NCBI GenBank assembly: GCA_905479835.1
Contig: CAJQNZ010000003.1
Location: 1 to 64,000, forward strand
DNA: 64,000 nucleotides
Source of the DNA: an uncultured Flavobacteriaceae bacterium
GTDB lineage: Bacteria > Bacteroidota > Bacteroidia > Flavobacteriales > Flavobacteriaceae
Reading direction: 5' to 3'
The stretch's first letter is position 1; every line of letters begins with the position of its first letter. The notes under the pieces were generated by a model. It ran no database searches. It was not told where the DNA came from and was given only the letters and a program-made list of their open reading frames with translations. Of this stretch, positions 3,168 through 5,941 are shown piece after piece. Made by a program: the position numbers and the translations under genes.

Positions 3168-4021
3168 ACAACCATTTTATCAATAGGAACGACTAAAATT
3201 CCTTCTGCTCCTGTTGCTTTCAATTCGTCAATAACTTCCCAAAATTCCTTCTCTTTAATTACACTGTGCAATGAACTCCAACCTTCTTGTGCCAATGGCA
3301 AAATCGTTGGACTCTTTAAAACAGGTAAAATTGATGTTACTTTATCAATGTTTTCATTCGGAACATTCATTAAAATATACTTTGTGTTTTTGGCTCTTAA
3401 AACTGCTTTAATTCTGAATAACAATTTAGATAAAATCGCCTCTTTTTCTTCATTTAAGTTTTTACTTTTTGCTAATACAGCCTCTGATTTTAAGATCACT
3501 TGTGTTTCTTTCAAACCATTTTTAAAGAGTGTACTTCCTGAACTTACGATATCACAAATACCATCTGCAAGTCCAATATTTGGTGCAATTTCTACCGAAC
3601 CAGAAATTACGTGAATATCTGCTTTGATGTTGTTTTTATCAAGATATGCTTGAACAGTATTAGGATACGAAGTCGCAATCTTTTTTCCATCAAAGTAATT
3701 GATTGATTCATCTTCCACTTCCTTTGGAACTGCCAATGAAACTCTACATTTTGAAAAACCTAATTGCTCTACAACTTCAATTTGTTTTTGCTTTTCAATC
3801 AATAAATTTTCACCAACAATGGCAATATCTACAACTCCGTCTTCAAGATATTGAGGAATATCAGAGTTTCTAAGGTATAAGAGTTCGATAGGGAAATTTG
3901 CAACTTCAACCTTCAACTGATCAATTCCATTTTTAATGTTGATACCACAACTTTTTAATAGTTTGATAGAATCTTCATTTAATCTTCCACTTTTTTGAAT
4001 GGCTATTTTAAGTTTATTCAT
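3164..4021 (-). CDS. hisG: ATP phosphoribosyltransferase
   Basis: KLKIAIQKSGRLNEDS N-terminus, DGICDIVSSGSTL motif, long-form HisG C-terminal domain. Confidence 0.96.
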   Translation of the reverse strand: MNKLKIAIQKSGRLNEDSIKLLKSCGINIKNGIDQLKVEVANFPIELLYLRNSDIPQYLEDGVVDIAIVGENLLIEKQKQIEVVEQLGFSKCRVSLAVPKEVEDESINYFDGKKIATSYPNTVQAYLDKNNIKADIHVISGSVEIAPNIGLADGICDIVSSGSTLFKNGLKETQVILKSEAVLAKSKNLNEEKEAILSKLLFRIKAVLRAKNTKYILMNVPNENIDKVTSILPVLKSPTILPLAQEGWSSLHSVIKEKEFWEVIDELKATGAEGILVVPIDKMVV

Positions 4022-4071: not shown

Positions 4072-4102
4072 AAAATCCGTTTGATTTACTCAAACGGATT
4101 TT
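4072..4102 (-). terminator. his attenuator terminator hairpin
   Basis: 13-bp perfect stem (4072-4084 / 4090-4102), loop TTTAC; in minus orientation followed by TTTATTT; between leader peptide and hisG. Confidence 0.88.
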
Positions 4103-4140
4103 AGAAAAATGTATATTAAATTACATATATATCAAATTCA

Positions 4141-4194
4141 TCACGCTTGGGCGTTGGTATGAAAATGATGATGATGTAATTGATTTGTATTCAT
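4141..4194 (-). CDS. his operon leader peptide MNTNQLHHHHFHTNAQA
   Basis: 17-codon ORF with 5 His codons (CAT CAT CAT CAT TTT CAT), directly upstream of a terminator hairpin and hisG; too short for the ORF track. Confidence 0.88.
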   Translation of the reverse strand: MNTNQLHHHHFHTNAQA

Positions 4195-4211
4195 TGTTTA
4201 TAATAATGGTT

Positions 4212-4242
4212 CAAATATATATCCTTTTTATCTTTTTACAAA
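4212..4242 (-). promoter_or_regulatory. his operon promoter (Bacteroidetes-type)
   Basis: Minus strand TTTG-N19-TATATTTG, matching the TTTG / TAnnTTTG consensus, about 18 nt upstream of the leader ATG. Confidence 0.7.
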
Positions 4243-4291: not shown

Positions 4292-5941
4292 TTACTCAAA
4301 AATCACTTTTTTCTCATTCTTAAACCAAGAATTATAATATTCTTGATGTATTTTCTCTATACTATTTCGTTTAACTTTAAGTGTTGGAGTTATCAATCCA
4401 TTATCAACAGTCCAATCTTCTTTCATAATAATAATTTTTTCAACCCTCTCAACGCTTTTAAGTATTTGATTTACTTCAACAAGTGTATCATTTAAGACTT
4501 GACTTAAAGTCTCTTTAGACATCGAATTTCCTACTTCTGATAATGTAATCAACGCAATCGGTTGTGGAATTCCAGTTCCAACAACACAAATCTGCTCAAT
4601 TGCAGGATTTTTTGCCAATTTTAATTCTATCGATGAGGGAGAAATATATTTTCCTTTGTCGGTTTTAAATTGATCTTTAATACGTCCAGTGATTGTTAAA
4701 TATCCATCGTGATCGTATTCTCCTTTATCTCCTGTTTTAAAATAACCATCTTTATCAAATACAGACGCAGTAGTCTCAGGATCTTTAAAATACCCTTTAA
4801 ACAAACATTTATTTTTTATCAATATTTCTCCTTCTAGTGATAACTTAATTTGAACATTTGGGAGTGCTTTCCCTACCGTTCCAACTTTATTTTCTCCAGG
4901 TAAATTAAAATGTGAAGAAATACAATCTTCAGTCATGCCATATCCTTGCAAAATTTCAATTCCTATTTTTTTATACCATTTCATAACACTTACCGACAAG
5001 GGTGCAGCTCCAGAAATCATAAATCCTGCATTAGAAAGTCCTAATTTTTTCTTTAACTTACTTTTTATAACATTTCTCAAAAATGGAATATTTAAAAGAA
5101 CATTTAATTTTTTCTGAGGGATATTTTCTAAAATTTTTTCTTGAAATTTTGTCCAAATTCTAGGCACTCCAAAGAAAATATCAGGTTGACACTTCTCAAG
5201 ATCCGATGCAAAGGTTTCTAAAGACTCTGGAAATGAAAATTCCGCACCAACCACCAATCCATGTGTTCCAATTCCAATACGTTCTGCTGCATGTGCTAAT
5301 GGCAAATAGGAAAATAATCTTGCTCCTTGTGGTAATTTCATAACTGAGCGTATGATACGTATACATTCCATAAAATTACCTACTGTATGAATAGCACCTT
5401 TTGGGTTTCCTGTGGTACCAGAAGTATAAATAATAGTAAAAACATCCTCTGAATTTACAGATGGAAACACCTCTATTGGTTCTTGGTTTGAGATGATTTC
5501 TTCCCATGATTGACCTTCATTCTCTCCATAGAGACCAATACTTATTTTATGAATATCAGGAATACCTAGTTTTTGAGATTGAAAATCGTCCAATTTCCCA
5601 ATAATGATTGCTTTAGACTCACTATGTTCTAAAACATGTTGAATAGAATCAGCACTTAAAGTAGGATATAATGGAATTGAAATATGTCCAGACATCATGA
5701 TTGCTAAATCTGATAGTATCCAATGAGCACAGTTTTTTGAAAGCAGTGCAATATGACTTTGCTTGGGCAAATTATAATCTCTTAATGCAGCAGCAATTTT
5801 TCGCGCTTCTTTTCCTGCTTCAGCAAAAGTATATCTGATTACAGAACCATTAATTGGTTGAACTAAGAAAGGTGCATTTGGGTTTTTTTGTTCCCAATGT
5901 AAAAAAGCCTCTATAGGTGAATTGAAATTTTCCATTGCCAC
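4292..5941 (-). CDS. AMP-dependent long-chain fatty-acid--CoA ligase
   Basis: TIIYTSGTTGNPKGAIHT, QGYGMTEDC, KTGDKGEYDHDGYLTITGRIKDQFKTDKGKYISP motifs. Confidence 0.92.
   Translation of the reverse strand: MAMENFNSPIEAFLHWEQKNPNAPFLVQPINGSVIRYTFAEAGKEARKIAAALRDYNLPKQSHIALLSKNCAHWILSDLAIMMSGHISIPLYPTLSADSIQHVLEHSESKAIIIGKLDDFQSQKLGIPDIHKISIGLYGENEGQSWEEIISNQEPIEVFPSVNSEDVFTIIYTSGTTGNPKGAIHTVGNFMECIRIIRSVMKLPQGARLFSYLPLAHAAERIGIGTHGLVVGAEFSFPESLETFASDLEKCQPDIFFGVPRIWTKFQEKILENIPQKKLNVLLNIPFLRNVIKSKLKKKLGLSNAGFMISGAAPLSVSVMKWYKKIGIEILQGYGMTEDCISSHFNLPGENKVGTVGKALPNVQIKLSLEGEILIKNKCLFKGYFKDPETTASVFDKDGYFKTGDKGEYDHDGYLTITGRIKDQFKTDKGKYISPSSIELKLAKNPAIEQICVVGTGIPQPIALITLSEVGNSMSKETLSQVLNDTLVEVNQILKSVERVEKIIIMKEDWTVDNGLITPTLKVKRNSIEKIHQEYYNSWFKNEKKVIFE

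Follow-up and report, generated by a model that had tools for sequence, protein, structure and literature searches.

Organization of the hisG upstream region

The window analyzed here, a stretch of 64,000 nucleotides from an uncultured Flavobacteriaceae bacterium, begins with a group of his genes on its minus strand (Table 1). The gene upstream of hisG, which encodes an acyl-CoA ligase on the same strand, ends at 4292, and the interval between the two holds a predicted promoter, a short leader open reading frame whose ATG lies 17 nt from that promoter, and a hairpin of 13 perfect pairs closed by a 5-nt loop (AAAATCCGTTTGA-gtaaa-TCAAACGGATTTT, 4102-4072). The initial annotation had listed a promoter, the leader codons with their TGA, a 13-bp hairpin, a T-run and hisG in this order, and a second reading of the minus strand recovered every one of them exactly as quoted. 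The predicted fold of the leader region is far more stable than that of dinucleotide shuffles (z = -6.5; 0 of 200 shuffles as good).

Table 1. Features of the his locus and its leader region in the window.
Feature	Position	Strand	Description
Promoter	4242-4212	minus	TTTG 4242-4239, 19 nt, TATATTTG 4219-4212; putative, Bacteroidota -33/-7 type
Leader peptide ORF MNTNQLHHHHFHTNAQA	4194-4141	minus	17 codons; ATG at 4194, TGA 4143-4141
Arm 1 AATTACAT	4181-4174	minus	Leader codons pairing with arm 2 in the MFE fold
Control codons	4176-4159	minus	Four tandem His 4176-4165 and a fifth 4161-4159
Antiterminator 5' arm B, CAAGCG-t-GAT	4149-4140	minus	Spans the last two codons and the stop; pairs with 4099-4091
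Arm 2 ATGTAATT	4126-4119	minus	Just 3' of the leader stop; MFE fold
Intrinsic terminator	4102-4065	minus	5' arm C 4102-4090, loop 4089-4085, 3' arm D 4084-4072
T-run	4075-4069 and 4067-4065	minus	Seven T in the first part; after and overlapping arm D
Element E GTTTTATTCAAGC	4051-4039	minus	Complementary to C and loop GTTTGAGTAAA; over 8 nt to the hisG start TGAATAAA
hisG, ATP phosphoribosyltransferase	4021-3164	minus	ATG at 4021; NCBIfam TIGR00070, 186.9 bits
hisD, histidinol dehydrogenase	3167-1875	minus	Overlaps the hisG end; NCBIfam TIGR00069
hisC, histidinol-phosphate transaminase	1882-851	minus	NCBIfam TIGR01141
Probable hisB (phosphatase and dehydratase)	854-3	minus	ORF reaching past the contig end; identity by sequence reading

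Distribution of the leader upstream of hisG

A PF01634 search of 151 genomes from the same family as the window, almost all of different genera, identified hisG in 126, and 110 of the hisG upstream regions, one per genus, were taken for comparison. We infer the labels Flavobacteriaceae, for this sample, and Bacteroidia, for the wider ones described below. The initial annotation had proposed such a comparison of related hisG upstream regions, and the outcome was uniform: the leader and hairpin layout, with a His-rich ORF and a terminator, is found in 110 of 110 family genera. The leader was recovered by rule in 107 of these regions, and the remaining three (L007, L008 and L043) show the same layout on reading, with MQNIKLHTHQFSIAQVR, MQMKYIHTHLIFRAQAR and MINSSAHHRFYTIAQAR, respectively. 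A hairpin separates leader and hisG in every family locus (110/110), its position having been set by eye in L100 and misplaced by the script in L002. Every family leader counted holds 3-6 His codons.

The rule "short ATG ORF with three nearby His" selected 105 of the 110 family regions and 27 of 30 hisG loci in an independent class-level sample. Applied to shuffled sequence or the opposite strand, the same rule gave 0-1, and with any residue other than His it never selected more than 11 of 110, so the His-rich leader is not a product of chance. Two further loci of the class sample, L221 and L233, have shorter His runs on reading, and L234 has none.

Searches with a covariance model of the element found matches in other families of the order and in other orders of the class, and 51 of the 53 loci taken from these searches adjoin hisG directly upstream. 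Weak matches (E above about 1e-4) are mostly ordinary terminators of unrelated genes and are real only beside hisG. One genome, G202, has two strong matches (L205 and G202:C57:62670-62786), of which at least one (L205) precedes a hisG; two hisG copies or a mixed assembly are possible.

Of the 106 loci listed, most have a TTTG-ending -7-like box 5-20 nt 5' of the leader ATG. The box ends only 5-8 nt before the ATG in L022, L029, L063, L090 and others, and given this short gap the leader ORF of several genera may be carried on a leaderless or almost leaderless mRNA.

Mutually exclusive pairings in the leader RNA

Terminator pairing between arms C and D is kept in 98.3% of pair cells of the family alignment, with six pairs showing changes on both sides. 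The hisG leader L197 (G174:C21) has His codons, an antiterminator arm, a terminator-like stem and element E, and is without a T-run; this copy may act on translation or be decaying.

The initial annotation described an attenuator without naming an antiterminator. The parts that it did state hold, and the missing partner was found at the end of the leader, where CAAGCG-u-GAU (4149-4140) can pair with AUCCGUUUG (4099-4091) in the 5' arm of the terminator. Across the family the leader end, mostly CAAGCGAGG or CAGGCGAGG, forms this duplex with CCCGUUUG of the terminator 5' arm, leaving a single base bulged. An alignment of 43 sequences (A1) keeps 90.2% of B:C pair cells with four pairs changed on both sides, a covariation that is modest within the family because many of these positions are nearly invariant there; its score was reached by 0 of 500 shuffles, and versions of the pairing slid along A1 are only 21-50% paired. 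Compensatory changes include A-U in the window, L022 and L059 where most leaders have G-C, and U-A for C-G in L050, while L060 keeps a full antiterminator in quite different letters. Cognate B:C duplexes are more stable than swapped ones both within the family (-11.66 vs -10.94 kcal/mol, p = 3e-8) and in 44 class loci whose terminators are of unrelated sequence (-12.0 vs -9.0 kcal/mol, p = 1.5e-7); kinship among sequences inflates these and the other pairing p-values, and the class set is the better evidence.

In the minimum free energy fold, arm 1 within the leader codons pairs with arm 2 beyond the stop. In the family, cognate arms again form the more stable protector pairing (-9.49 vs -7.53 kcal/mol for swapped arms, p = 1e-9), and cognate arms also beat swapped arms in the class (p = 1e-3). 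CAT makes up 405 of the 446 leader His codons (L001-L110), against 75 of 160 in the initial stretch of hisG, a preference that is perhaps needed for the protector pairing.

A fixed spacing and selection on RNA at the leader end

In 78 of 95 leaders, 21 nt separate the final His codon of the run from the conserved GCG of arm B, irrespective of whether three or four His make up the run; ten more leaders score 13 on account of an overlapping GCG located 8 nt earlier. Arm B ends at or beside the stop codon in most loci. With the size of the ribosome footprint taken as an assumed value, this constant spacing and the end of B at the stop fit the geometry expected of a stalled ribosome: B would stay accessible while the ribosome is halted at the His codons and be occluded once it has reached the stop. 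The 21-nt ruler would then be a measure of the stalled ribosome's edge.

The Ala codon within B is GCG in 91 of 95 leaders, compared with 165 of 1495 Ala codons in hisG. L090, L063 and L100 keep the same B RNA in a different reading frame, and L083, L088 and L095 keep it with a stop (TAG/TAA) in place of the leader Gln codon just before the antiterminator arm. Frozen wobble bases, together with frame and stop changes that preserve the RNA, indicate that selection at the leader end acts on RNA and not on peptide.

An element complementary to the terminator arm near the hisG start

A further segment, element E, is complementary to the terminator 5' arm and loop in 65 of 99 genera (91 of 140 loci), ends mostly 13-17 nt before the hisG ATG, and is absent from roughly a third of the genera. 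Loop bases change together with E, the same columns showing T-A, A-T, C-G and G-C pairs, and the E-loop pairing gave p < 0.0005 in an anchored permutation test. E also pairs with the hisG start codon in 26 of 99 genera, compared with an expectation of 4.3 by shuffling; nearly all of these genera have a hisG starting ATGAGT, and E:hisG-start pairing was rejected as a general rule. C:D is usually as stable as C:E or more so, and we accordingly make no claim that C:E displaces the terminator.

In F. johnsoniae, structure in the vicinity of the start codon tunes translation initiation (PMC6847099). In read-through RNA, E could block the hisG start, and C with its loop, once free of D, could take E away. 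We suggest tentatively, from these complementarities, that C might be a three-way hub, pairing with B under starvation, with D in termination or, together with the loop, with E, and that E might sequester the hisG start in part of the family. If so, hisG would be controlled by a single rearrangement at the levels of both transcription and translation, in bacteria without Shine-Dalgarno sites.

A candidate histidine attenuator and its alternatives

On the comparative evidence, the hisGDCB operon is very likely controlled by this element as a histidine-specific, ribosome-mediated transcription attenuator. The initial annotation had proposed ribosome-mediated attenuation, and this is well supported by the sequence comparisons: a short leader ORF rich in codons for the operon's own amino acid, an intrinsic terminator between this ORF and the first gene, a covarying antiterminator whose formation excludes the terminator, fixed spacing, and a protector pairing that would make termination the default are all present and conserved. 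Counting against it, the antiterminator duplexes are short (-9.5 kcal/mol for B:C in the window) and face a strong terminator.

From these parts, their conservation, the exclusive pairings and the spacing, all read directly in the sequences, we infer termination, read-through and a response to histidine as follows. RNA polymerase would start about 10 nt before the leader ATG, and a ribosome would trail it through the leader. When charged His-tRNA is plentiful, the ribosome would reach the stop and cover B, so that C:D forms and transcription ends at the T-run. When His-tRNA is short, the ribosome would stall on the His codons with its leading edge just before B; B could then pair with C, the terminator could not form and hisG would be transcribed. 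Were no ribosome loaded, pairing of arms 1 and 2 would fold up the B region, leaving C:D to form and transcription to terminate. The cell, on this evidence, very probably makes histidine only when it is short of histidine.

Part of the same evidence could be read otherwise. Since the acyl-CoA ligase gene lies on the same strand and ends at 4292, the hairpin might serve only as its terminator, with the His-rich ORF an accident, but leader, promoter and hairpin travel with hisG in 110 genera, the shuffled and opposite-strand controls give 0-1, and the hairpin pairs with the leader's end, which together make this reading extremely improbable. It is very improbable that the leader is instead a functional small His-rich peptide, for instance a metal-binding one, with the RNA pairing secondary: the peptide sequence is indeed conserved (HHHHFH.C.QA), but its C-terminal conservation belongs to the RNA, as the frozen wobble bases and the frame changes and early stops that keep the RNA argue, and apart from its His run the peptide is different in loci outside the family.

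Control of hisG might also be mainly translational, the leader deciding whether E pairs with C and the loop or with the hisG start and the terminator playing a minor part. The covarying C:E pairing in 65 of 99 genera is in keeping with this, as is L197, which keeps the leader, B, C:D and E yet is without a T-run, but nearly all other loci keep a strong terminator with its T-run, roughly one genus in three lacks E and start-codon pairing is confined to 26 of 99, so that we regard it as quite improbable. A T-box, metabolite riboswitch or protein-binding leader has a precedent in the T-boxes of Firmicutes his operons (PMC9413887), but no Rfam family scored above threshold in the window or in the leaders of ten diverse loci, and a control-codon ruler has no role in such systems; we consider its probability practically negligible. 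Searches of the window and these ten leaders with the T-box covariance model gave no match, and Rfam his_leader, the proteobacterial family, gave none at its gathering score or at E <= 10.

A copy with Asn codons upstream of asnB

In one genome, G462, a duplicated his-type element lies upstream of asnB (L160 / L193, G462:C205; MKTQTHNNNRFFALASR). Asn codons replace the His codons in this copy, and the rest closely resembles the genome's own hisG leader (L207, MNFQSHNHHHFLA). Of 21 AsnB orthologues of the class examined, only that of G462 is preceded by an Asn leader, which is absent at the 20 others. The copy is possibly an asparagine attenuator and, although a single case, would fit well with codon-specific sensing; it amounts to a natural codon-swap experiment.

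Relation to known leaders and implications

The initial annotation had likened the locus to enterobacterial his operons. The architecture bears this out, as enterobacterial hisL (Rfam his_leader) also has tandem His codons in a short leader, a protector, an antiterminator and a terminator directly before hisG; in descent the element is not enterobacterial, no Rfam family having been matched. The leader RNA described here is much shorter than that of enterobacterial hisL, its antiterminator arm lies in the last leader codons and the stop, and it has a Bacteroidota promoter and no Shine-Dalgarno context. Reviews place His attenuators in the Proteobacteria, with scattered Firmicutes cases as predictions (PMC9413887, PMC2965389). 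The Firmicutes candidates (PMC9413887; hisS/hisZ leaders, PMC2965389) resemble the present element in having 3-5 tandem His codons, a terminator and an antiterminator and in being predicted by comparison only, but they belong to another phylum, are unrelated in sequence and occur sporadically, whereas the element is nearly universal in the sampled family.

The mechanism is already known, and the element is not wholly unreported. A 2021 study of F. psychrophilum describes a structured 5' element that precedes hisG, is conserved in further genera of the Flavobacteriaceae and has no Rfam match; it also notes leader-peptide clues upstream of amino-acid operons and suggests leader-peptide attenuation for them (PMC9723704). 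That element, as described there, is almost certainly the one analyzed here; its anatomy, antiterminator, spacing, covariation and class-wide range are not described in the main text of that study (PMC9723704). In the text of a 2021 survey of his genes in the superphylum we found no such leader, and attenuation is mentioned once, for enterobacteria (PMC8305728). Element E and the single asnB copy with Asn codons are possibly new, and these two, together with the class-wide range and the ruler, should be fresh to specialists.

Judging from its range among the sampled genomes, control of hisG by attenuation looks ancestral to a whole class within the Bacteroidota. Bacteroidota are without Shine-Dalgarno sites, and transcription-translation coupling has been little studied in them; the element offers a ready test of whether the ribosome trails RNA polymerase closely enough to attenuate in these bacteria.
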